DNA of 64,000 nt from Candidatus Zhuqueibacterota bacterium (lineage in GTDB: Bacteria; Zhuqueibacterota; Zhuqueibacteria; Oceanimicrobiales; Oceanimicrobiaceae), in contig JAJDAD010000023.1 in NCBI GenBank assembly GCA_029262055.1, forward strand, positions 62,001 through 126,000. The letters are read 5' to 3'. Both the position numbers and the translations under genes were made by a program. The notes under the pieces are model-generated. The model was not told where the DNA came from, did no database searches, and saw only the letters and a program-made list of their open reading frames with translations. Position 1 is the stretch's first letter. Each line of letters opens with the position of its first letter. This document shows, in pieces, positions 50,395 to 64,000 of this stretch.

Positions 50395-50931
50395 CTAGTT
50401 GAAGGCGTCTTCCACTTCCGTGTTTTCCTTAAAGAGCGCAACCTCCTGGTCTTGCTCAATGTGACACTGCGTGCAGTTGAGTCTGTCCGGATGCGTGGTT
50501 TGGACTATCTCCGTACGGCTGGAGTCGTTATGGCACGCAGCACAATTCTCTCGCATAAACACCCGGTGCGGAAGCAGTGGCGGTCCGCTCGGCTGGATCT
50601 GCTTAAGCGAGGGTGTTTCCTGCGGGCCCACAAAACTGTTTTCTTGAAATAGAGGAATCTCTTCCGGCGCACGGACATGGCATTGCTCACAAGTCAACAG
50701 TTGCGGGTGTGGCGTGGCCGGCGCACGGTAGCCCTGCACAACCAGTCCCTCTTTGTGACAATCAAGGCAGTCCCGATTAAGGACTTTGTGTGGAATCAGC
50801 GGAGGTGCGTACGCATAATAACGCAGCTCCGCCCTGGCGTACTTTCCGTACAATTGTTCGTCATTAGCGCTGCCACAGGCGATAAAAAGCCCAACGCAAC
50901 AAATGCAACTGCCGAGAATTAGTCGGTTCAT
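50395..50931 (-). CDS. Tetraheme NapB-like cytochrome c lipoprotein
   Basis: 178 residues with a lipobox (LFIAC, Cys19). Four CxxCH motifs: CLDCH (55), CEQCH (81), CAACH (130) and CTQCH (153). Two similar halves each read PPLxPHxV, CxxCH, HPxxL, CxQCH, then LFxEN, which is the NapB diheme unit duplicated. Normal NapB carries two hemes, so this is a doubled form. It would pass electrons to NapA, encoded 57 bases upstream. Confidence 0.85.
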   Translation of the reverse strand: MNRLILGSCICCVGLFIACGSANDEQLYGKYARAELRYYAYAPPLIPHKVLNRDCLDCHKEGLVVQGYRAPATPHPQLLTCEQCHVRAPEEIPLFQENSFVGPQETPSLKQIQPSGPPLLPHRVFMRENCAACHNDSSRTEIVQTTHPDRLNCTQCHIEQDQEVALFKENTEVEDAFN

Positions 50932-50988
50932 AGCTTAAATCTCAGTTATAGGAAATCTGTATTTGCGACGTATGCCAAACAACGTCGT

Positions 50989-53331
50989 TTAGCTGGCATG
51001 CAGCTTCTCGATTGTCACGGCGCACTTTTTATAATCGGGTTCTTTTGAAATCGGGCAATAAGAATCGAGCGTCACCTCGTTGATGAGTTTGCCCTCATCG
51101 AAGAACGGCACAAAAACGGATCCACGCCGCGGTTTGCCTCTCCCATCCAGCACGACCTTCAGTTCGATCGAGCCGCGCCGCGATTTGACCGCCACTTTCT
51201 CGCCATTTTGAACTCCGCGCTCGGCGGCATCCTTGACATTCATCTCGACATACGCCTCCGGGACAGCCCGGTGCAGATGGGGCACGCGGCGGGTCATGCT
51301 GCCGGTGTGCCAATGTTCCAGAACCCGGCCGGTGCACAGCCAGAACGGATACTCCTTATCAGGCGTTTCAGCCGCGGGCTCGTAAGGCCGCGCCCAAATC
51401 ACCGCCCGGCCGCCGGTTTTTTTGTTCGAGTAAAACTCTATCTCCTGCCCTTTTGAAACGTAGGGGTCATAGCGCGAAGTATAGCGATAGGGCGTCTCCC
51501 GGCCATTGATGACAGGCCAGCGTTTGCCGCGCGCTTCCACATATTCTTCATAGGCGCCTAAATCGTGACCCGTGCCCAGGGTAAATCGCCGGTATTCTTC
51601 GAACAGCTCTTTCTCGTAAGTGTCTTCGCCGTAGTTGAAGAACTCACCGTAGCCCATTCGCTTTGCGACTTCCAGGGTCTGCCAGACATCGGGCTTCGCA
51701 TCCCCGGGCGGGTTGACCATTTGGAACCACTGCTGCGTCCGACGTTCGGTATTTCCGAACATACCCTCACGCTCTACCCACATCGCGGAGGGCAAGATAA
51801 CATCAGCCACCTCGCTCGTCGGTGTTGGGTACACTTCGGAAACCACCAGAAAACGCCCGTCTTTCTGCGCGCCTTCCCGGTAGCGGATCAGGTTGGGCAT
51901 ACTGACCATCGGGTTGGTGGTCTGCGTCCAGAGCACCTTGATATCCCCGCGGTCAAAAGCCCGAAACATCTCGACCGTATTGTAGCCCGGCTTCGGGTCA
52001 ATATTCGTAACCGGTACGCCCCAAATATCGGCCGCGTTTTGCCGGTGGGCCGGATTCATGACCACCTTGTCGGCCGGCAGCCGGTGCGCCAGAGTCCCAA
52101 CTTCCCGGACGGTGCCGCAGGCGCTGGGCTGGCCGGTCAGGGACAGCGGATTGTTGCCGGGCTTGCAGATTTTTCCGGTCAGCAGGTGTAAGTTATAAAC
52201 CAGGTTGTTTATCCAGGTCCCACGGCTGTGCTGGTTCATTCCCATGCACCAGAGAGAGACCACTTTGGTGAACTTGTCGGCATAAACTTCCGCAAGCTGC
52301 CTGATCTTGCCCGCTGGGATTCCCGAAATCTTCTCGACGTAGTCCGGCGTGTATTTCTGAACGTAGTTTTTGTATTGTGCGAAGGTCATCGCTTGCGGCG
52401 CGTCTTTGAACTTGAAGTTATCCTCAAGGCCGTACCCGATGTTCTCCTTGCCGCTCCTGAACACAGTATGTTCGTTGATGAACTTTTTGTCGTACCGGCC
52501 GGTGTTGACAATGATCCTGGCAATGGCGTTCGCGATGGCCAAGTCAGACTGCGGCTCCATTGACAGGTGCATGTCGGCCCACTCGGTGGTCGGGGTGCGA
52601 CGCGTCGCCAGATCCACGATTTGAACCCAGGAAGCGGTGCGTCGGCGTTCCAGGATGCGGGAGAACAGGACGGGGTGCATCTCTGCCATGTTGTTGCCCC
52701 AAAGGACGAAAGCGTCAGCTTTCTCAAAATCGTCGTAGCAGCCCATCGGTTCATCGGCACCGAAGGTCGTGATGAAACCGGTGACCGCACTGGCCATGCA
52801 GAGCCGTGCGTTGGCCTCGACATTATTGGAGCCCATGCAGCCTTTGAACCACTTCAGAGCAGCATATCCATCCGAAACGGTCCATTGCCCCGAACCGTAC
52901 ATTGCGACAGACCGGGGGCCGTGTGTAGTCAACGCTTCTGTGTACTTGCCCGCGATCAGATCGAGAGCGTCGTCCCAACTTGCTTCTTTCATTCCGCCAT
53001 TGCCACGGATCTGCGGCTTGGTCAAACGGTCCTCACCGTAAAGAATGCCGGGCAGGCTGTACCCTTTTATGCACAGCAAACCTTTGTTGACCGGATTTAA
53101 CTCATCACCTGCTACTGCAGCTATCTTGCCATTTTTGACGCCGACCATCACGCCGCAGCCGGTGCCACAGAAACGGCAGGGGGCTTTATCCCAGGTCAGA
53201 GTTGGATCAAGCGGCACGCCTTCCGCGGAACCAGTGGCGTCGTTGCCACAACCGCTCAGCCCGATCGGAAGTGAAGCAAAGGCCGCAGAGGCAGCGCAAT
53301 GTTTAACAAAATCTCGTCTTGACAGCGTCAT
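50989..53331 (-). CDS. napA: Periplasmic nitrate reductase catalytic subunit
   Basis: 780 residues, a bis-MGD molybdenum enzyme reducing nitrate to nitrite. A Tat signal (SRRDFVK, 4-10) leads to a lipobox-like LSGC (Cys28), suggesting a Tat-exported lipoprotein. The 4Fe-4S cysteines are C52, C55, C59 and C87. Cys178 in NARLCMASAVTG is at the Mo-Cys position, which separates Nap from respiratory Nar (Asp) and formate dehydrogenases (Sec/Cys). GADEPMGCYDDFEKAD and the C-terminal GSMTRRVPHLHRAVP fit NapA. It follows NapD and a small ORF and uses the ribosome-binding site CAGGAGG. Confidence 0.92.
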   Translation of the reverse strand: MTLSRRDFVKHCAASAAFASLPIGLSGCGNDATGSAEGVPLDPTLTWDKAPCRFCGTGCGVMVGVKNGKIAAVAGDELNPVNKGLLCIKGYSLPGILYGEDRLTKPQIRGNGGMKEASWDDALDLIAGKYTEALTTHGPRSVAMYGSGQWTVSDGYAALKWFKGCMGSNNVEANARLCMASAVTGFITTFGADEPMGCYDDFEKADAFVLWGNNMAEMHPVLFSRILERRRTASWVQIVDLATRRTPTTEWADMHLSMEPQSDLAIANAIARIIVNTGRYDKKFINEHTVFRSGKENIGYGLEDNFKFKDAPQAMTFAQYKNYVQKYTPDYVEKISGIPAGKIRQLAEVYADKFTKVVSLWCMGMNQHSRGTWINNLVYNLHLLTGKICKPGNNPLSLTGQPSACGTVREVGTLAHRLPADKVVMNPAHRQNAADIWGVPVTNIDPKPGYNTVEMFRAFDRGDIKVLWTQTTNPMVSMPNLIRYREGAQKDGRFLVVSEVYPTPTSEVADVILPSAMWVEREGMFGNTERRTQQWFQMVNPPGDAKPDVWQTLEVAKRMGYGEFFNYGEDTYEKELFEEYRRFTLGTGHDLGAYEEYVEARGKRWPVINGRETPYRYTSRYDPYVSKGQEIEFYSNKKTGGRAVIWARPYEPAAETPDKEYPFWLCTGRVLEHWHTGSMTRRVPHLHRAVPEAYVEMNVKDAAERGVQNGEKVAVKSRRGSIELKVVLDGRGKPRRGSVFVPFFDEGKLINEVTLDSYCPISKEPDYKKCAVTIEKLHAS

Positions 53332-53453
53332 ATATCCTCCTGAAACTGCTTATGAAGTGCAATCCATTTCTTCGCTTCCGTCTTGGTATTTTGAACACCT
53401 TGCCGAGTCGGCATGTTGCTATCAACACGCGCAGAAACAGATTCACTACTCAT
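53328..53453 (-). CDS. 41-residue ORF coupled between napD and napA
   Basis: ATG 53451-53453 overlaps the napD stop by 8 bases and its TGA overlaps the napA ATG by 4. The peptide is MSSESVSARVD then KTEAKKWIALHKQFQEDI: polar with an amphipathic C-terminal half, no signal or metal motif. Such tight overlaps on both sides favour a real translated gene, though the napA ribosome-binding site lies within it and could explain the spacing. No family recognised. Confidence 0.4.
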   Translation of the reverse strand: MSSESVSARVDSNMPTRQGVQNTKTEAKKWIALHKQFQEDI

Positions 53454-53670
53454 GGCTATAGTATGCAACATTGGCACTCTCAATGCCATCCTCATTTGCG
53501 ATTTGCTCAAAGACTTTCTTCATTTCGTCGTCTGTTGTCGCCTCGAGGACCACCACCAGACAATTTTCTACTGGCGGGTGGACGTCGGCTCCAAATTTCT
53601 CTTTGAGCATGGTCCTTACAGCACCGATCTTGCCCTGTTCTACTGACAAAGTCAAACTTGAGATCGGCAA
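53446..53670 (-). CDS. napD: NapD, Tat-signal chaperone for NapA
   Basis: 74 residues from TTG 53668-53670, which gives the family-typical start PISSLTLSV; GAGAGGAG lies just upstream with good spacing, whereas a GTG two codons earlier would sit on it. Ferredoxin-like fold pattern with VVVLEATTDDEMKKVFEQI. NapD binds the Tat signal of NapA and guides its maturation in the cytoplasm. It follows the octaheme cytochrome by 36 bases. Confidence 0.83.
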   Translation of the reverse strand: MPISSLTLSVEQGKIGAVRTMLKEKFGADVHPPVENCLVVVLEATTDDEMKKVFEQIANEDGIESANVAYYSHE

Positions 53671-53706
53671 ATGCACTCCTCTCTCAGATGTCTTCGCTGA
53701 ATGTCC

Positions 53707-55206
53707 TTAATCACCGGCATACCGTTTGTCAAACTCGGCCTTAGCCTTGTCACGAGCGGCCTTTTCTTCAGGACTCATTCTACCGAGATACCACTTGTGC
53801 ATCTCTGAACTCAAGGTCTCATCCAGCAGAGCTTGCACCCGGGCAGCGCCGCCTGCATTACCATGCGCCCTAGCCTCACTGATCAAGTGTTTGACCTCCG
53901 GAACAAACTCGACATAAAAACGCTCCGCTACTTCGTACATCCCGTGCCATTGCGTGTAATCCGGCCCCATCATGGAAGCACCCATACGGGCCCGCCGGCC
54001 TTCATGGTGCCAGAGGTAAAAATAGATCCACTCGATCTCGTCATCAAAAGCGACATCGGCGGTGATCATTCCCTCAGCCTTGAGCTTCTTCATGATCGCG
54101 GTCGTTGGGATGCCGTACTTATCATTATACAGGTTCACAACGTCGTCGTATTGCTTGTAAAAGCTCTGGACGTATTGCTTGGTGTGGCACTGGAAGCAGA
54201 CATCCTGCATATTTTGCCGGCGCTCCTCCCAGGGCATGGTTTCCCTCCCTGCTTTGATGTCAGGCGCATCGACCTTCTCCGAAATGGGGGGCCGCAGCGT
54301 CCAACTGATCCTCTCACCGACGTCGTGGGTTACGGGCTGGTTGGGCGTGGCACTCATGTGGCAGGTGGCACAAGTCGGCGCCGAGATATAGTCCTTGCCA
54401 ACGATCCACGGTTTGGCATCCAGGTTCATTTCATCCTTGTGGGCAATGAAATTAATACCGTGCTTGGACTCACGATAAATCTCGTACTGTGGATGGTCGG
54501 GACCCAAATGACATTTACCGCAATCATCCGGCTCGCGAGCTTGCGCAACGGAAAAATAGTGCCGGTTGTGGCAAGCCGCGCATGACCCCAGGCTTCCGTC
54601 CGGATTCAACCGGCCGATGCCGGTATTGGGCCAGGTCTCAGGATCGATCATAACGATGCCGTTGCGGTCTTTCATGACATTGCCGTCTTCGTCCCGAACA
54701 AACTCCACAATCGAGCCGTGGCATTGTTTGCAGCCACTGGTCGCAACCGCGTTGCCGTGCATCATGGTGCTGCCCTCGACTACTTCCGCCAGGACATTGT
54801 CCAGCGAGCCGAGTATTTTCCCGGCCTGAGCATGATGGCTTCTCTGGAATTCAGCAAACTCCTGTTTGTGGCAGCGGGAACAGTCTTTGGGCGATACGAT
54901 GGTCGCAATCGTCGACTGATAATGCGAAAACGCATCGATATCATCTTCGTCGGCGCCATGGCACTCGATGCAACCGACGCCCTTGATCGCGTGTTCGCTC
55001 TCCTTCCATTGGGCGACGGCAGTGCTGGCGTTGCTTTGCTGCGAGTGGCACTCCACACATTTTTTATTTCCATCTGAAATAGCGATTGCGGGCTTTGAGC
55101 CGGGTATGTGTCTTTTCCCCTCAATGTAGCCAACGATCAGCAACGCCGCCAAGAGAAAAAAACTCAAGACCGCAATTATTGTTCTTTTTGTCTCCAATGA
55201 AAGCAT
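53707..55206 (-). CDS. Octaheme cytochrome c of the hydroxylamine oxidoreductase family
   Basis: 499 residues, an N-terminal membrane anchor (about 9-28) and eight CxxCH sites (CVECH, CIECH, CSRCH, CKQCH, CAACH, CGKCH, CATCH, CFQCH). After the last heme come long helices with YFYLWHHEGRRARMGASMM and GPDYTQWHGMYEVAERFY, as in HAO-type proteins. The family includes hydroxylamine oxidisers and, in some nitrate respirers (epsilon-Hao), nitrite reducers. Located between cytochrome b and NapD, it may carry electrons from the quinol oxidising module or reduce nitrite itself. Confidence 0.85.
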   Translation of the reverse strand: MLSLETKRTIIAVLSFFLLAALLIVGYIEGKRHIPGSKPAIAISDGNKKCVECHSQQSNASTAVAQWKESEHAIKGVGCIECHGADEDDIDAFSHYQSTIATIVSPKDCSRCHKQEFAEFQRSHHAQAGKILGSLDNVLAEVVEGSTMMHGNAVATSGCKQCHGSIVEFVRDEDGNVMKDRNGIVMIDPETWPNTGIGRLNPDGSLGSCAACHNRHYFSVAQAREPDDCGKCHLGPDHPQYEIYRESKHGINFIAHKDEMNLDAKPWIVGKDYISAPTCATCHMSATPNQPVTHDVGERISWTLRPPISEKVDAPDIKAGRETMPWEERRQNMQDVCFQCHTKQYVQSFYKQYDDVVNLYNDKYGIPTTAIMKKLKAEGMITADVAFDDEIEWIYFYLWHHEGRRARMGASMMGPDYTQWHGMYEVAERFYVEFVPEVKHLISEARAHGNAGGAARVQALLDETLSSEMHKWYLGRMSPEEKAARDKAKAEFDKRYAGD

Positions 55207-55238
55207 GTCTCCTCCATAATCAAATTACCAGATTCCAA

Positions 55239-56384
55239 CTACACCATTGCCTCCCAGACCGTGAAGATCAGGAATCCAAGAAACCCGATTACTCCCAGCC
55301 AGAAACTAACATCGCGCCCAGGCCATCTTCGTACGAGCGCTCGATCTATGAAAGGCCAAAACAGTAAAATACCTAAGAAAACCATCGTGCCCACAACACC
55401 GACTTGAAAGGACGTGAGTTTGAGCCAACGAAAAGTTGCGTAAAAGAACCACTCCGGTTTGATGTGTTCGGGCGTCACCAGCGGGTTGGCCGGATCCCCC
55501 ATGTGGGCCGGGTAAATCAAAGCGAGAATTGTCAACAAAAACGTCAAGCTTAACCCAACAATAAGCTCGGTATAGAAATGGTCGGGAAAGAATGGATATG
55601 ATTCTTCCTTGACCCGCTCCTCCTCCTGCACTGCTGCAGCCTCTCCACCTTGAGGTCGCACCGGTGATACCGGGGCCGAGACACGCACGGAGAGTTCCAC
55701 CGACGGAGTATCCTCGCCCTCGTGGCGCAGGTGAGTCACCCCGTGCAAACGTATTTGAACCACATGCATGGCAAGGAGCAACACCATTACGGTGGGCAGC
55801 ACACCGATGTGCAACACGAAAAAACGCGTCAGGGTATTGTCTCCTACTTCGGGACCACCCCGAATAAAGTCTGCCAGCAGACCACCGACAAGGGGGGTCG
55901 CCTCCGCAACATTGGTACCGACGACGGCTGCCCAGTATGAGATTTGTTCGTAAATCAAGGAGTAGCCGGTAAAGCCGAACCCAAGTGTAACCATGAGGAG
56001 GCCAACGCCGAACATCCAATTCAGCTCACGTGGCTTGCGGTACGCCGCAGTGAAAAACACACGTATCACGTGCAACATGACCGCCATTACCATGAGGTGG
56101 GCCGACCACTTATGTATGCTTCTTAGAAACCAGCCGAAGCGTACCTGGGTTGTAATATGCATGACGCTGTTGTAGGCCTCGGCGGGATCCGGCACATAGT
56201 AAAAAGTGAGAATAATCCCGGTCGTGGCTTGAATGACAAACAGGTAAAGCGGTGTTCCCCCAATCGCATACCACCATCTCTTCAAATGGTTGGGAATTGG
56301 CTCACTGGATATTTCCTTAAGAAGATTTGGGTCAAATGGAAATGAATCTGCAAACCACTGTTTAAATGCCGCAACTCTTTGCAT
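55239..56384 (-). CDS. Full-length cytochrome b of a bc-type complex
   Basis: 381 residues with about eight membrane helices. The b-type heme ligands are in HKWSAHLMVMAVMLHVIRVF and FFVLHIGVLPTVMVLLLAMH. The C-terminal (subunit IV-like) half holds the Qo-site motif KPEWFFYATFRWL (PEWY type). It oxidises menaquinol or ubiquinol in the inner membrane. It follows the Rieske gene by 33 bases, and an octaheme cytochrome gene follows where cytochrome c1 would usually be. Confidence 0.92.
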   Translation of the reverse strand: MQRVAAFKQWFADSFPFDPNLLKEISSEPIPNHLKRWWYAIGGTPLYLFVIQATTGIILTFYYVPDPAEAYNSVMHITTQVRFGWFLRSIHKWSAHLMVMAVMLHVIRVFFTAAYRKPRELNWMFGVGLLMVTLGFGFTGYSLIYEQISYWAAVVGTNVAEATPLVGGLLADFIRGGPEVGDNTLTRFFVLHIGVLPTVMVLLLAMHVVQIRLHGVTHLRHEGEDTPSVELSVRVSAPVSPVRPQGGEAAAVQEEERVKEESYPFFPDHFYTELIVGLSLTFLLTILALIYPAHMGDPANPLVTPEHIKPEWFFYATFRWLKLTSFQVGVVGTMVFLGILLFWPFIDRALVRRWPGRDVSFWLGVIGFLGFLIFTVWEAMV

Positions 56385-56417
56385 AAACGCTCCTTATTTC
56401 AAACCGGCGGGCCGGTT

Positions 56418-56879
56418 TTAACCCTCAAGCAGTAAAACGAAAACATTGTCATTCTCATCCACTTCAACATCATAACTATCGAGCGGTCGCGGCGGCGGTC
56501 CCGACACCACCTGGCCATTGACGTCGAAAACCCCGTCATGACACGGACAAAAAAACCGGTCGTTATCGGCTTCCCAATAAGCCTTGCATCCCAGGTGCGT
56601 GCAGGTGGTCGAAATGGCTTTCAGGCCCGCATCGGAATTGACCAGAATCATCTCCCGCCCGGAAAGGTCTTTGAAAGACTTGCTGCCATTGGGAGGTAGT
56701 TCGCTCAAAGAGGCGACCAGCATTTTTCTGAATTTTGCTTTACGTTTGCGCGGCAGCAAGAATTGGATAGCATACGATGCCCCCGTGCCATACCCGAGGA
56801 TCAACCCTGCACCCATTATCACTCTTTTAAGAAAACCGCGCCGGCCGACGTTATTATCTTCTGACTGAGTTGTCACCAA
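56418..56879 (-). CDS. Rieske 2Fe-2S protein
   Basis: 153 residues. A Tat-like GRRGFLKRV and membrane anchor (about 20-42) precede the Rieske domain with CTHLGC (Cys93, His95, Cys98) and CPCHDGVFD (Cys111, Cys113, His114); GPPPRPLDSY is the Pro loop. It transfers electrons from quinol at the Qo site. First gene of the Rieske-cytochrome b-octaheme-nap operon; a strong stem-loop lies 43 bases upstream of the ATG. Confidence 0.93.
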   Translation of the reverse strand: MVTTQSEDNNVGRRGFLKRVIMGAGLILGYGTGASYAIQFLLPRKRKAKFRKMLVASLSELPPNGSKSFKDLSGREMILVNSDAGLKAISTTCTHLGCKAYWEADNDRFFCPCHDGVFDVNGQVVSGPPPRPLDSYDVEVDENDNVFVLLLEG

Positions 56880-58087: not shown

Positions 58088-58549
58088 CTACTCAGGATCC
58101 TGGTCGGACGGATTAACAGGTAACTCGGACAGAATGAAGTCTCCAATCGATCCCTGCTCGCAGACGTCCAGCCAGTCAGTAAGCTCCGTCATTTTGATCG
58201 GCTTGTGAAACACTCTGCACCCTAGACGTTCAAAATCTGCAATCTCAGCCTCCTCCCAAGACGCTGACATTACGGCAATATATGGCACTTTGCATCCGTG
58301 TCTCTTTTGCTCTTTCACAAAGCTTAGGCCGGTCATTCTCGGTTTGTTCACATCAAGTAGCAAGACGTTGGTGCATATGGCATCCTGGCTACACGGACAT
58401 GACTCGTCCAAAGAAATGGGACACCAATCAGTCTCGGACAGGGCATAGACCTCATACCCACGTTTAAGCAAGACGGACTCTATTGCGTTTCTAAACGCAT
58501 CATTATTATCAATAATGATGGCCCGTTTGGAATGCGATGCTCTTACCAT
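58088..58549 (-). CDS. Receiver-domain protein with a cysteine-rich insert
   Basis: 153 residues from ATG 58547-58549; a longer frame exists but adds a non-family N-terminus. Receiver motifs are IIDNNDAFRNAI, the phosphoacceptor region VLLLDVNKPRMTG and VFHKPIKM. Between beta2 and beta3 an insert CPISLDESCPCSQDAIC carries four cysteines that could bind metal or a redox cofactor. No output domain. It stands between two redox modules, so redox-linked signalling is a plausible guess. Confidence 0.75.
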   Translation of the reverse strand: MVRASHSKRAIIIDNNDAFRNAIESVLLKRGYEVYALSETDWCPISLDESCPCSQDAICTNVLLLDVNKPRMTGLSFVKEQKRHGCKVPYIAVMSASWEEAEIADFERLGCRVFHKPIKMTELTDWLDVCEQGSIGDFILSELPVNPSDQDPE

Positions 58550-58660
58550 GTTTACCAATCGACGATGAAACAGCAACAGAAGAAAGACCGGAAATCTGGA
58601 CAATTATGGGATTAAAAACTAGAATCGCGGCGCGCAAGGAATGTGCCGCGAACAAGAAGT

Positions 58661-58809: not shown

Positions 58810-59988
58810 TCAAGGCCCATGACAGTAGCCGCAAAAGCCAACACCTCTCTGCATCGAATCCGTATGGCAGGAAAAACACAAAGCGCTTTCGTCCTCATGA
58901 AAATCAGAACCCTCCCCAAAACGGTTGGCAAAACCGCGCTCATGTGTCCTGGGGTTAGTACCGCGCACGCCGTCAAAGTCGGTATGGCAGAGCAAACACG
59001 TCGGATCATTGCCCTCATTGCTGTGGCAAGCGGCGCAGCTTTCCATGTCACGTTTTGCCAATGCTGCGTGCCGGCCGCCACCAGTGCCTGTTACTCCGGC
59101 TAGCGCGCCCCAGTCCGGTCCGCCATGCCAAATCGGTTTGCCGGCCACGACGACGCCACTTGATTCGTGGCAGTCCTGGCAAAAACTGCGGGTTTCATGA
59201 CAGACGGCGCAGTCGCTGGTCCGCCCTTGCGCCTGCAAAGGATGTGTGGCCCGGAAGTTCAATTCGTGTACGCGGGAAATCGTCAGACTGCGCGTTCCCG
59301 GCCCAATCGCCGGAAAGAACGGCGAACGCGATTGCATATTCCCGCCGCTTTCCGTGGCGAACAAGGCAGCGCCATCGTGACACTCGGCACAATCGTTGTC
59401 AGAGTGGCAACTGGCGCAGGTCTCCTGGTCGAAGCGCGCGATGTTCTTGTGGCTGACGAGAAAGTCTGCGGTGTGGTCCGATGGTCTCAGATTCAGGGTA
59501 TTGCTGTGGCAGATTTGGCACTCTAATGTAGCCTGCTGATTGTCGTGACAAGTTGAGCAAACCGCCATATCCGGCATGCTATTACTGTCCGAGAAATCCA
59601 CCTCATTGAGGTTCTGGTGGCAAGTCTCACATTTTCCGTCGAGCCGTTCGACATGCTTCTTATGTCCAAAAAGAAGCTCCCTGGCAACAGGTTTAAACGC
59701 ACGTCTGGTGTTCTCTGCTTCAAAATGACAGATGCTGCAGTCGTCCTCCTCTTCCACATCGTGGCACTCGGCGCAGTCCGACTTTTGCGGCAGCAGATTA
59801 TCCGCGGCCCGCGTGCTGGCAACTGCCTGCGTGTGACAATCACCACACGTGGTTTCGATCTCGGTCTGGTGATATTTGTGGGAAAATTTTATGATTTCCT
59901 GGCGCTGGTGTGGCTGGCTCTGCGACAGCGCAATGAGCGCAGCAGCGGCAACAAGTCCGAAAGACAAGAATGTAGCTAAGATCCTCAT
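58810..59988 (-). CDS. 14-heme periplasmic cytochrome c
   Basis: 392 residues with a signal peptide (LATFLSFGLVAAAALIALSQ) and fourteen CxxCH motifs: CGDCH, CAECH, CSICH, CETCH, CSTCH, CQICH, CASCH, CAECH, CAVCH, CQDCH, CAACH, CLLCH, CFSCH, CGYCH. One heme per 28 residues gives a molecular wire. Spaced histidines (KFSHKYH, LLFGHKKHV) supply distal ligands in the style of c7/MtrA-type cytochromes. With the barrel at 60475-61767 it could bridge the periplasm. It follows ccmE by 39 bases. Confidence 0.88.
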   Translation of the reverse strand: MRILATFLSFGLVAAAALIALSQSQPHQRQEIIKFSHKYHQTEIETTCGDCHTQAVASTRAADNLLPQKSDCAECHDVEEEDDCSICHFEAENTRRAFKPVARELLFGHKKHVERLDGKCETCHQNLNEVDFSDSNSMPDMAVCSTCHDNQQATLECQICHSNTLNLRPSDHTADFLVSHKNIARFDQETCASCHSDNDCAECHDGAALFATESGGNMQSRSPFFPAIGPGTRSLTISRVHELNFRATHPLQAQGRTSDCAVCHETRSFCQDCHESSGVVVAGKPIWHGGPDWGALAGVTGTGGGRHAALAKRDMESCAACHSNEGNDPTCLLCHTDFDGVRGTNPRTHERGFANRFGEGSDFHEDESALCFSCHTDSMQRGVGFCGYCHGP

Positions 59989-60027
59989 GCTAAGATATCC
60001 AACTTGTGCAAGTTAATAGCCAACCCT

Positions 60028-60465
60028 TTAGGTCTGGTCCAAGTCCCGGTGCAATTCTGCATCGTATCCTTCAACAGTCGCACCGTCCTGCGTATCATAT
60101 TTTGATGGACACTTTGCCATCAGCATGCTGGCTTGAAAATGACCGTCAACATGCATCTTGCCTTCAACCAATACCTCCGACCCGTCTTTAAAAGTGTCGG
60201 GAAGTTCTTTGTCATATTCGACTTCCAGTTCTTGCCCCTTGTCCTGAATAACAAAGCGGACTTTCAGGCTTTCATCCGTGCGCACCAGAGACCCCGGTAC
60301 CAGATATCCTTGCACACGCATTCCGCTGGTTGCGGACGTCATGGTCTTCACCTCATCGATGCTCACATAGTACTGCATGTTCTGGTCAAATCCGCTTAAA
60401 GTCAACCACAACAGAAGAACAGAGACAATCGTGAACGAGACAGTGATTTTCACCTTGCTTCGCAT
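60028..60465 (-). CDS. ccmE: Cytochrome c maturation heme chaperone CcmE, CXXXY type
   Basis: 145 residues: one membrane helix (about 8-24), then an OB-fold (MRVQGYLVPGSL, VRFVIQDKGQELEVEYD, VLVEGKM). In most CcmE the heme-binding residue is the His of HDENY; here the position reads AKCPSKYD, giving Cys119-x3-Tyr123, the CXXXY form known from sulfate reducers and archaea. It hands heme to CcmF for attachment to the many CxxCH cytochromes nearby. No other ccm gene is in the window. Confidence 0.85.
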   Translation of the reverse strand: MRSKVKITVSFTIVSVLLLWLTLSGFDQNMQYYVSIDEVKTMTSATSGMRVQGYLVPGSLVRTDESLKVRFVIQDKGQELEVEYDKELPDTFKDGSEVLVEGKMHVDGHFQASMLMAKCPSKYDTQDGATVEGYDAELHRDLDQT

Positions 60466-60474
60466 TACGCCCCT

Positions 60475-61767
60475 TTATTTCTTTTGGCTTGCGAAGAACC
60501 AGTAGTTGGCTTTCACAAGCACGCGGAAATCATTGTCCAGGAATCGATTGCGTATGCCCTGCCCCAGTACATTGAACGAACAATGTTGCTTGAAGCGATA
60601 GTTGATCCCAACACTCCCGGTCAACGATGTGTTGCTGTCCGCATCCTCGTCAAACAAACGATAGCGAGACAGGCCGGTGTTGGCGACAACCCCCAACTTC
60701 TGAGTCAGCGGATAGCTGAGCGCCGCGTACGCCCCACTGTTCTGGCCGCCATAGCCTCGCCTGAAATTGTATCCGAATGAGCCATATTTGGATCCCAGGC
60801 CGGCGCCGAATCTCACGGTTTCATCACCGTCATATTGTGAAAAGCCGACATTGCCATTCACAAACCAATTTCCGGTAAACCGGTAGTTGGCGCGCACAGC
60901 CACGTCCTGGGTGGTGTTGAGTTCAAACACAGTAAAAATAGAATTGGCGGCAAGCAGCGGGGCCCGATGAAAAAACTCCAGGGCTACTTCGAGTCGAGTG
61001 TTGGCACTATACTTGAGCTCAACCTGTCCGCGTCGCAGGCGCTCCTGCTCAAGGTCATAATCGAAACGCCCGTAAAAACCGACTCGTCGTGAAAACTGTC
61101 TTTGTAAATCAACCCCAATTAGTCTTTGCTCGAGACTCTGGTAACTCAGGATCCGTTGTGTAAACCTGCCTGGTGAAGTATAAGACAGTGGGCGGCGATT
61201 CCTCTGCATAAAGCTGACGAGCACCCTTGTTCCCAAAAGGTCCCGGGCGCTGACGCGCAGACCAAGTGCATGCCTGTCGTCCCAGTCTGCAATATCCACA
61301 TCGTTGCCGGGCAAGGCCAGTAATCCGGCAAAACCGCCGACTTTGAACCGGCGGCCCAAACGCAGGGTCAAATCAACTCCGTCGATGGTACCATATGCCA
61401 CGCCGGAATACAAACGCTGCCGGCCCAACCGAATGCGCTGCAGCAAGTTTTTCTTGTCATGCCACTGCAGATACGAATTGTAAAGACGAAAGACCGGCTC
61501 TCCGCTATCGATCTCATCACCAAGTCCTTGCGCACCGTGCCCGAAAAAATGGGCAGATAGCCGGTTACCGGCCATCTGCCCGATGGTCAACTGCGCTGAC
61601 TGATACAGGATCGATTGGGTCTCTGAACCCGACAGCGTCTGGCGCTCCAGCGAATAAAAGGAGGTTGTAAAACGCCCGTTCACGGACTGCGCCGGCACCT
61701 GCGACAGCAAAGGTACGAGCAGCAGTCCGATGATAAGGCTAAGTTTAGTACACAATGAGTGCAACAT
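60475..61767 (-). CDS. Predicted outer-membrane porin-like barrel
   Basis: 430 residues with a signal peptide ending VPAQ, then continuous amphipathic strands with periodic turns (RIRLGRQRLYSGVAYGTIDG, RRVGFYGRFDYDLEQERL, YRFTGNWFVNGNVGFSQYDG) to a C-terminal VKANYWFF. Predicted strand number is compatible with about 18-20. It has no recognised family name. Set between a 14-heme cytochrome/CcmE pair and a surface-sorted multiheme cytochrome, it could act as the porin of a porin-cytochrome conduit, although MtrB-type porins are larger (about 650-700 residues). Confidence 0.7.
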   Translation of the reverse strand: MLHSLCTKLSLIIGLLLVPLLSQVPAQSVNGRFTTSFYSLERQTLSGSETQSILYQSAQLTIGQMAGNRLSAHFFGHGAQGLGDEIDSGEPVFRLYNSYLQWHDKKNLLQRIRLGRQRLYSGVAYGTIDGVDLTLRLGRRFKVGGFAGLLALPGNDVDIADWDDRHALGLRVSARDLLGTRVLVSFMQRNRRPLSYTSPGRFTQRILSYQSLEQRLIGVDLQRQFSRRVGFYGRFDYDLEQERLRRGQVELKYSANTRLEVALEFFHRAPLLAANSIFTVFELNTTQDVAVRANYRFTGNWFVNGNVGFSQYDGDETVRFGAGLGSKYGSFGYNFRRGYGGQNSGAYAALSYPLTQKLGVVANTGLSRYRLFDEDADSNTSLTGSVGINYRFKQHCSFNVLGQGIRNRFLDNDFRVLVKANYWFFASQKK

Positions 61768-61783
61768 TAGTCTGATGTCCTTA

Positions 61784-63385
61784 CTACTTCAGCAATAACA
61801 TCTTTTTGGTGGTCACAAAATTGTCCGCAACCAACTTGTAAAAATACAAGCCGGAAGAAAGTCTGGACCCGTCAAAATCCACAGTGTAAACATTCGGCAG
61901 CAGCTCGTCATCAATCAGCGTCTGAACTTCCTGGCCCAGGGCGTTAAAGACAACCAGCCTCACATGGCCTGCCCGCGGAACCTCAAAGCGGATGGTTGTG
62001 CCCGGGTTAAACGGGTTCGGGTAGTTTTGCTCAAGGGCGAATGTTCGTGGAGTAGTAGCTCCCGGAACCGGCTCAATCGAGGTTACCAACGCCGTATCAA
62101 GAAATGCGATTGTATTTGCGAGAATGCTGCGCGCGTAATTTGTATTGTGCACGCCCTCGCTACCCTCATTCTCTACGAAGCGTAGATTGAACTGACCGAT
62201 AGCAAAGTCGGCAGAGTCCTGGGAAGAGGCATTTGGCAGAGCATTGACTTCCAGATCATCAATGATATTGGACAGGCTGTCCAAAAGGGCGCGAATCTCA
62301 GTACGTCGCCCGCGATGGTCGAACTCATCATCGCCAGTGGTCTCCAACCCGGATACATGGCAGCCTTCCTGACTACAGGCCTCAATTCTCGGCTCAAAAG
62401 TGTGTCCGGTCTTCGCCGGATTGTTTTCATCTACAAACGGTGTCATGAAAACGTGGCAAGTGACACACTTTTCTTCCTGCAACGACGGCAGAACCTGGTG
62501 CGGTGACTGCGTCACGAAGGCAACGCCAGGAATTTCCGCTGCGCCAAACCCACCAAACACCGAAGCTGTCGAGTGGTGCGGATTGTCAGGCGGGGCTGCA
62601 TCTTCCGGGTTGTGGCACTTCACACACAGATCTGCCGGTGGCAGCCGTAGTTGGCCAGGATTGGCCGCGTCGTGTGGGTCGTGGCAGGTTGCGCAGACGA
62701 TTGGCAAAGCATCATCGCCCGGCGGCACCACATTGGGAATAATATTGGTGGTATCCTCAGGGGTAGTGCCCACAAACTGCAGAAAACCCTGAAAAGTGTG
62801 ACAGCCGGAACAGTTAGGATTGTTTCTAAACCTGTCCTGCAAAAACGCAACAGGATGCGTGTCTGAATGAGAGTGGGCTGCCTCCAGCCACTCCTCGATA
62901 TAGGGATGATGTTCGTCCTGGTGACATTGGCCACAGTTTTCCGCAGCCGCAGCAAGCATGCTGGGCCTGGGAGGCAATTCACCTGTGGAAAAAACATTGG
63001 CAGTGTGTCCTGACGCAGGTCCGTGGCAGGACTCACATTGGACATTGGTTTTCTTATCAAACTCAGCCTGATCATTGACCGTAATACTGCCATCCCCGTT
63101 AATCGTTACAAAATCATCTGCGCCGAGATTGGTTGCCGTTGTATCCCAACCGGTCGTGTGACACTGCAGACAGCGGGCCGTACCCTGCACAAATGCAGAG
63201 GCAGAATCAAAGGCAGCCGCATGGACAGTTTCCTGCCAGAACGGGAAGACGTTACCTCCTGGAGGGCCGGAATGGCATCCCTCACATGTGGCAGCGCCAC
63301 GATAAGTCAACTCTTGTGCAAACACCATATTAAAGCCTGTAAACAACACCGCGCTTGCGGTCAACAGTAGTATACTTCCTTTCAT
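61784..63385 (-). CDS. Multiheme cytochrome c with type IX-type C-terminal sorting domain
   Basis: 533 residues from ATG 63383-63385 (AAGGAG six to seven bases upstream). Signal peptide, then eight CxxCH motifs (CEGCH, CLQCH, CESCH, CGQCH, CSGCH, CATCH, CVKCH, CVTCH) and a ninth, CSQEGCH, with four residues between cysteines. The last 80 residues (LEQNYPNPFNPGTTIRFEVP, GLYFYKLVADNF) are the secretion-sorting domain of FCB bacteria that directs proteins to the cell surface. It should be an exported surface cytochrome. It lies 16 bases upstream of the barrel gene. Confidence 0.88.
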   Translation of the reverse strand: MKGSILLLTASAVLFTGFNMVFAQELTYRGAATCEGCHSGPPGGNVFPFWQETVHAAAFDSASAFVQGTARCLQCHTTGWDTTATNLGADDFVTINGDGSITVNDQAEFDKKTNVQCESCHGPASGHTANVFSTGELPPRPSMLAAAAENCGQCHQDEHHPYIEEWLEAAHSHSDTHPVAFLQDRFRNNPNCSGCHTFQGFLQFVGTTPEDTTNIIPNVVPPGDDALPIVCATCHDPHDAANPGQLRLPPADLCVKCHNPEDAAPPDNPHHSTASVFGGFGAAEIPGVAFVTQSPHQVLPSLQEEKCVTCHVFMTPFVDENNPAKTGHTFEPRIEACSQEGCHVSGLETTGDDEFDHRGRRTEIRALLDSLSNIIDDLEVNALPNASSQDSADFAIGQFNLRFVENEGSEGVHNTNYARSILANTIAFLDTALVTSIEPVPGATTPRTFALEQNYPNPFNPGTTIRFEVPRAGHVRLVVFNALGQEVQTLIDDELLPNVYTVDFDGSRLSSGLYFYKLVADNFVTTKKMLLLK

Positions 63386-63499
63386 CATTGACTCCTTCCA
63401 ATCAACTTTCCAGGTCCTAAATTTACTCAAAAAACACTTTCACTGACACAATATAGGTTGGCCGTACCTCCTTTCGATTTTCTGGTCTTCTGTCGTTTA

Positions 63500-64000
63500 T
63501 TATAATTGTGAAGTACCGGTGTGGCATTCACTGCAAGCCATCTCTTTCCACGCCTCTTCGATGTCTACCGGGTGTCTAAACTCCAGCCCGGATGGCGCGA
63601 TGGCCTGGCCGTTGGCGCCCGATCCTTGCGAAATGATGACGTGACAGCTATTGCAGTCATTTGTGATCACTTCGCCGCTTTCGTCATTCACAAAGCTTCC
63701 GTTGTGACAGCGATAGCAGCCGGGACTGGTGAAATGCCCGATGTTGTCCGGATAAACATCCCATTGCACCTTCATTTCAGGAAAGAAATTTCTACGATAG
63801 ATTTCCTGAGTCGAGGCAATCAACTGCTTTACATCAGCAGTTCTTGTCTCCCAGGTCTCAGGATATTCATCCGCATAAGCTTGCTCTATTTGTGTTGCAA
63901 TTTTCTGCTTCGCCGAATCCTTGACGCTGTACTCGCCGATCAAGGCTTCGATCGCGATGCGTTTGGCGCTGGGCAGTGACGGTTCTATCTCGCCCATGCT
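63500..64000 (-). CDS. Multiheme cytochrome c, N-terminus cut by window edge
   Basis: The reading frame is open through base 64000; at least 166 residues of C-terminal part are visible. Three CxxCH motifs (CYRCH, CNSCH, CSECH) follow a helical region. GHFTSPGCYRCHNGSF followed by NDCNSCHVII resembles the C-terminal heme part of membrane-associated c-type cytochromes seen with ResB-like or NapC-like proteins in FCB genomes. An ATG at 63995-63997 is unlikely to be the real start. Probably the first visible gene of the multiheme operon. Confidence 0.7.
   Translation of the reverse strand, partial: SMGEIEPSLPSAKRIAIEALIGEYSVKDSAKQKIATQIEQAYADEYPETWETRTADVKQLIASTQEIYRRNFFPEMKVQWDVYPDNIGHFTSPGCYRCHNGSFVNDESGEVITNDCNSCHVIISQGSGANGQAIAPSGLEFRHPVDIEEAWKEMACSECHTGTSQL

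Follow-up and report, generated by a model that had tools for sequence, protein, structure and literature searches.

How a bacterium of candidate division KSB1 might pass electrons across its outer membrane, and which protein would receive them outside, is the question raised by a run of cytochrome genes at one end of a 64,000-nucleotide stretch of DNA (the window; positions 62001-126000 of the 134,617-bp contig C30 in a genome of 5.74 Mb). A preliminary description of the window had listed five minus-strand genes at 58810-64000, for a truncated multiheme cytochrome, a multiheme cytochrome with a type IX secretion system (T9SS) sorting domain, an outer-membrane barrel, CcmE and a 14-heme periplasmic cytochrome, and had read them as a variant porin-cytochrome conduit whose exterior partner is delivered by T9SS instead of as a lipoprotein. 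All five genes are present there on the minus strand. Analysis of these genes and their relatives indicated that the locus probably encodes a conduit of the porin-cytochrome complex (Pcc) type for electron exchange at the outer membrane, leading from quinol to the exterior, with a lipoprotein and a T9SS-tagged nonaheme cytochrome as candidate exterior partners.

The core of the locus is formed by the barrel and the 14-heme cytochrome. The barrel was sought in 119 relative genomes and was present in 52, and 40 loci chosen by the barrel were examined. A profile of the 14-heme cytochrome, searched against about 85,000 species genomes, yielded 164 relatives, and the best 80 of the 164 loci were examined; the two sets make up 120 loci, or 113 unique loci including that of the window after removal of 8 duplicates. 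The closest named relatives from the profile search are the KSB1 metagenome-assembled genomes (MAGs) OFTM356, OFTM177 and OFTM72 from the Oslofjord subsea tunnel, whose loci are identical to those of G002, G005 and G004, respectively. The OFTM MAGs were placed by their authors in family CR04bin15, with iron-reduction genes mentioned in general terms (PMC10732223). The barrel and 14-heme genes are adjacent and on the same strand in 120 of the 120 loci, whichever gene served as the query, and constitute an inseparable pair. A barrel encoded next to a periplasmic multiheme cytochrome characterizes Pcc-type complexes, and the predicted proteins of the window show this arrangement. A count of the CXXCH motifs bore out the 14-heme assignment, and comparison of 42 relatives of this cytochrome revealed that all 14 of its 14 heme motifs and 12 additional histidines are invariant, as would be expected of bis-histidine hemes.

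The AlphaFold2 model of the barrel (predicted local distance difference test [pLDDT] score of 90.4) consists of 22 strands, which begin at residue 28, right behind the signal peptide. MtrB has 26 strands, so the earlier statement that the barrel is smaller than MtrB holds for the prediction. The best structural matches of the model are barrels of TonB-dependent transporters, likewise with 22 strands (Z about 21, root mean square deviation 3.5-4.5); MtrB is absent among the matches listed, which is uninformative either way. TonB-dependent transporters hold a plug inside the 22-strand barrel, whereas no plug domain was found in the window barrel, either in the model or by family match, and its lumen could therefore take the 14-heme cytochrome. 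A plugless barrel of 22 strands, modeled at this confidence, is compatible with holding a cytochrome. The barrel sequence gave no meaningful match to solved structures, and no substrate-porin or transporter family exceeded its cut-off, the general barrel domain PF13505 being the only match. The preliminary description had named a substrate-specific porin without a conserved link to cytochromes as the finding that would speak against a conduit; the barrel shows the reverse on both counts.

The sorting domain reported for the neighboring cytochrome was confirmed, with its tail scoring over both curated cut-offs (TIGR04183, 39.5 bits against 23; PF18962, 32.1 against 27). SprA is encoded in the genome (TIGR04189, 757.6 bits), across which 116 Por_Secre_tail sorting-domain matches were found, and the combination of sorting domain and translocon predicts that the cytochrome is a T9SS substrate. 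The protein contains eight CXXCH motifs and one CX4CH motif, and is counted as a nonaheme because the latter aligns with CXXCH in the orthologues. The TTG listed as the start (63430) is probably not the true one, and the ATG at 63388 is preferred for its AAGGAG ribosome-binding site and clean signal peptide. When the family profile was compared with solved structures, the top relatives were 6qvm (104.7 bits) and OcwA (6i5b, 99 bits), the best stretch of the latter spanning profile positions 130-396 of 409; a shared GVHN motif was also noted. The profile also matched octaheme nitrite reductases and NrfA, scoring below OcwA, and no CXXCK catalytic heme is present in the T9SS cytochrome. These comparisons assign the protein to an OcwA-like nonaheme family, the homology covering the C-terminal helices and the greater part of the heme domain. 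OcwA is the nonaheme cell-surface terminal reductase of Thermincola potens and also reduces nitrite and hydroxylamine (PMC6703420). In 20 control stretches sampled from the same genome (400 kb), no T9SS-tagged multiheme open reading frame and one open reading frame with at least five hemes were found; the T9SS multiheme at the conduit is therefore more than chance. Two further T9SS tags were recorded separately: a sorting domain at the end of contig C30 (134312-134584), beyond the window, is 57% identical to the tail of the window cytochrome, and a tagged open reading frame of 1128 residues with 23 heme motifs contains an OcwA-like domain (L165, 106-3489).

Gene positions were compared by hand in the 27 KSB1-phylum genomes that contain both an OcwA-like gene and the barrel; in 16 of them the two share a strand and lie within 7 kb of each other (G000, G003, G012, G015, G017, G023, G027, G028, G030, G031, G035, G036, G039, G045, G047, and G052). 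In G003, which belongs to the same family, two contigs each show the order NapC, T9SS cytochrome, barrel, and the same nonaheme domain is part of the longer T9SS cytochromes (850-950 residues) encoded in other genomes of the KSB1 phylum. Full-length T9SS-tailed orthologues with 37-39% identity occur in six Ignavibacteria loci (L106, L117, L121, L123, L135, and L150), directly before the genes for a tetraheme cytochrome, the barrel, the 14-heme cytochrome and a lipoprotein. The closest tail-less relative (39% identity) is encoded in genome G087, from another phylum, and carries a lipobox; its gene is flanked by those for a tetraheme cytochrome and a DmsE-family decaheme cytochrome (219.6 bits, cut-off 192.2), the latter followed by the gene for a 626-residue protein with a C-terminal Phe, a probable barrel. 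Several other nonahemes outside the KSB1 phylum have lipobox-like N-termini, identified here by pattern matching and not by a dedicated predictor, and no tail; some have collagen-like linkers (L193, L195, and L198), and in L195, L198 and L212 such linkers, rich in Gly and Pro, stand behind this N-terminus. Many non-KSB1 nonahemes adjoin a multiheme cytochrome and a barrel-size protein (L219, L223, L225, L226, and L227), judged by size and last residue except in L225, where a weak barrel-profile match was obtained. This linkage to barrels across phyla argues that the OcwA-like cytochromes work with conduits. The simplest reading of the sequences is that several conduits share one family of surface cytochromes, which some bacteria deliver by lipidation and others by T9SS. 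Since heme of the c type is added to the protein in the periplasm and T9SS transports substrates that have already folded, export in the folded state would suit a nonaheme cytochrome. We lean, with some reserve, toward the broader proposal that the family serves unrelated conduits in many phyla and is delivered either by lipidation or, where KSB1 and Ignavibacteria are concerned, by T9SS, which would be in these two groups a general route for building extracellular electron transfer chains.

The full minus-strand run extends past the window edge into the contig, which was read onward as locus L007. The cytochrome described as truncated is cut by the window edge only; in the contig it is a complete inner-membrane protein of 508 residues and the NapC/NrfH type (PF03264, 36.9 bits, over the cut-off), with three hydrophobic segments and seven heme motifs. 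In the order of transcription, the run encodes a response regulator, a Rieske protein, a cytochrome b, a 430-residue 9-heme cytochrome with a C-terminal hydrophobic segment, the 555-residue DUF2339 protein, the 287-residue 7-heme lipoprotein, a 190-residue tetraheme c554-like cytochrome, the NapC/NrfH-type protein, the T9SS nonaheme, the barrel, CcmE, the 14-heme cytochrome and a second response regulator. Between the lipoprotein and 14-heme genes, neighboring genes are separated by 9-69 bases. In Ignavibacteria, Rieske, cytochrome b and multiheme genes often stand directly before the conduit genes (L094, L095, L101, and L114), which supports a link to the quinone pool.

From gene content, the pairing of the core genes, the sorting tail, SprA and family membership, all read from sequence, we infer a complex with the following topology and electron path. 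Quinol in the inner membrane would be oxidized by the NapC/NrfH-type 7-heme dehydrogenase, by the Rieske-cytochrome b complex, of which the 9-heme cytochrome would be a subunit, or by both. The tetraheme c554-like cytochrome of the periplasm would then hand the electrons on to the 14-heme cytochrome, proposed to fill the 22-strand barrel and to carry them over the outer membrane. Outside, they would reach the 7-heme lipoprotein (GSu CxxxxCH family), the OcwA-like nonaheme, or both. The nonaheme would be made and loaded with heme in the periplasm, exported through SprA with its C-terminal sorting domain as the signal, and located at the surface, where it may exchange electrons, in either direction, with a mineral, a partner cell or a soluble acceptor. 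The coordinates of the genes are listed in the table.

Table. Genes of the putative conduit and its surroundings (window coordinates unless preceded by L007)
Feature	Position	Strand	Basis
Response-regulator domain protein downstream of cluster, possible regulator	58088..58603	-	PF00072, 31.2 bits
14-heme periplasmic cytochrome, putative heme wire in barrel, IALB_1838 type (size, heme number, layout)	58810..59988	-	14 CXXCH in 392 aa
CcmE-domain heme chaperone, CxxxY (Cys) type	60028..60465	-	PF03100, 95 bits
Outer-membrane barrel, 430 aa, 22 predicted strands, no plug domain	60475..61767	-	AlphaFold2 model
Nonaheme cytochrome, OcwA-like, tagged with a T9SS type A sorting domain; exterior partner candidate	61784..63388 (listed start 63430)	-	TIGR04183, PF18962
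C-terminal part of 508-aa NapC/NrfH-type 7-heme cytochrome, candidate quinol dehydrogenase	63500..64000, on to L007:9027	-	PF03264
7-heme lipoprotein, 287 aa	L007:9698-10561	-	TIGR01904
DUF2339 membrane protein, 555 aa	L007:10730-12397	-	DUF2339

Several results weigh against this model. The AlphaFold2 model of the 14-heme protein was unusable (pLDDT 58.9), as is usual for heme-built proteins modeled without heme. Most Ignavibacteria loci lack the T9SS cytochrome while encoding the lipoprotein, and given this rarity the former may be an accessory partner. In addition, the nitrite and hydroxylamine activity of OcwA suggests that the T9SS cytochrome may have a catalytic role. Among the 72 loci with enough flanking sequence, the neighborhood of the core pair includes a multiheme lipoprotein in 59, a tetraheme cytochrome in 49 and a T9SS multiheme cytochrome in 22, with lipoprotein and T9SS cytochrome together in 20. 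Two exterior candidates can thus be named by sequence, the T9SS nonaheme and the 7-heme lipoprotein, the latter more widely conserved; the proposed T9SS-tagged partner is indeed linked to the conduit, but its delivery instead of a lipoprotein does not describe a cluster that encodes both.

The alternative that survives best, though we consider it the less probable course, is that the 7-heme lipoprotein is the exterior partner and the T9SS nonaheme an independent secreted enzyme whose gene happens to lie in the same operon. The neighborhood counts agree with this, as does the position of the lipoprotein gene directly after the 14-heme gene in Ignavibacteria, whereas the linkage of the OcwA-like gene to the barrel in KSB1, and to different barrel-cytochrome pairs in other phyla, argues against it. 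The lipoprotein and the nonaheme may also act in series. Both types of cytochrome have larger forms elsewhere: the lipoprotein family reaches 21-28 heme motifs in L042, L047 and L136, and T9SS-tagged 15-heme cytochromes of about 815 residues lie downstream of the conduit in L138 (13104-15545), where the heme spacing looks duplicated, and in L144 (7841-10288).

It is unlikely that the T9SS nonaheme is an extracellular reductase of nitrite, hydroxylamine or another small molecule, belonging to the NrfA/HAO superfamily and fed by the conduit. Such a role would fit the lower-scoring profile matches, the activities of OcwA, and a module of NapA, NapB and HAO-like proteins with its own Rieske-cytochrome b directly downstream; the lack of a CXXCK heme, the presence of a surface terminal reductase among the nearest solved relatives, and the periplasmic octaheme that the Nap/HAO module already has all speak against it. 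An inward flow of electrons, with Fe(II), Mn(II) or another cell as their source, appears similarly doubtful. The nearest relatives come from iron- and manganese-oxidizing biofilms of the Oslofjord tunnel (PMC10732223), and conduits of this type can work in both directions, but the adjoining NapC-type dehydrogenase and bc-type modules suit quinol oxidation, although the sequence itself does not fix the direction. The best alignment of the barrel model, with TonB-dependent transporter barrels, would suit an ordinary transporter in incidental cytochrome company, but this reading can be dismissed almost entirely: the barrel has no plug, matches no transporter or substrate-porin family over its cut-off, and shows unbroken adjacency to the 14-heme gene.

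CcmE, counted in the original gene set, is present, yet it was ruled out as a conserved part of the unit, standing beside the conduit in 3 of the 113 unique loci; its position between the barrel and 14-heme genes is, by this comparison, a lineage-specific insertion. A second CcmE copy, on contig C32, shares the CPSKY motif. The size, heme number and NapC domain of the 508-residue cytochrome make ImcH a possible identity, as do the ImcH homologues reported from Melioribacter (PMC6295460). In several KSB1 loci, the DUF2339 protein is again encoded beside the NapC-type gene or the Rieske-cytochrome b module. The second respiratory module, directly downstream on the minus strand (50395-56879), encodes a Rieske protein, cytochrome b, an HAO-like octaheme, NapA (NF010055, 1025 bits, cut-off 904) and a NapB-like tetraheme, and is read as nitrate reduction with its own bc-type complex.

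What is known of the delivery of surface cytochromes concerns chiefly the lipoprotein routes of Shewanella and Geobacter, and in the sequences compared here the lipid anchor and the T9SS tail look like interchangeable means of delivering one surface cytochrome. The open-access papers searched included no report joining T9SS or type IX secretion with multiheme cytochromes, which, given this scope, is weak evidence of novelty. If KSB1 and Ignavibacteria do export such cytochromes by T9SS, searches based on lipoproteins would miss the exterior partner in many uncultured bacteria of sediments, groundwater and hot springs; extracellular electron transfer could be tested by removing a single gene, sprA; and OcwA, discussed until now as a reductase of Gram-positive bacteria, would become the outer end of Gram-negative conduits.

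Comparison with known systems places the novelty at the outer end. The interpretation as a variant porin-cytochrome conduit is largely supported, but its core is already on record in Ignavibacterium album JCM 16511, whose Pcc comprises the porin IALB_1839, the 14-heme periplasmic c-type cytochrome IALB_1838 and the outer-membrane c-type cytochrome IALB_1837 (PMC4245776). The two systems share a barrel followed by a 14-heme periplasmic cytochrome of about 400 residues, and an outer-membrane cytochrome with atypical heme motifs. Because the layout of Ignavibacterium locus L119 agrees (a 421-residue barrel, a 401-residue 14-heme protein and, directly after its gene, a 313-residue lipoprotein), as does that of the Melioribacter loci, the core pair is best filed, on the basis of layout, as the I. 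album Pcc type. To this type the KSB1 locus adds a CcmE gene between the core genes, quinol modules in one run, and the OcwA-like nonaheme, whose predicted T9SS delivery is the new part. MtrCAB and DmsEF of Shewanella follow the same logic of periplasmic multiheme, barrel and exterior multiheme, whereas KSB1 has 22 predicted strands against 26, 14 hemes against 10, a barrel with no sequence relation found, and a T9SS-tagged exterior candidate outside the OmcA/MtrC family; the window proteins score far below the cut-offs of TIGR03508 and TIGR03507, which stand for the DmsE/MtrA-family decaheme and the OmcA/MtrC-family exterior decaheme, with no MtrB family match. OmbB-OmaB-OmcB of Geobacter shares the Pcc layout and an exterior lipoprotein candidate with, by family (TIGR01904), CxxxxCH motifs, but its periplasmic partner has 8 hemes instead of 14, and no T9SS-tagged partner is described there. 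The Mtr-like cluster of G087 (L166) has a tetraheme of the same family and the related nonaheme, there an apparent lipoprotein beside its decaheme and probable barrel. OcwA and the 6qvm cytochrome belong to a homologous multiheme family, OcwA with nine heme motifs likewise; unlike the Gram-positive Thermincola, which has no outer membrane, KSB1 provides its protein with a T9SS tail and a partner barrel.

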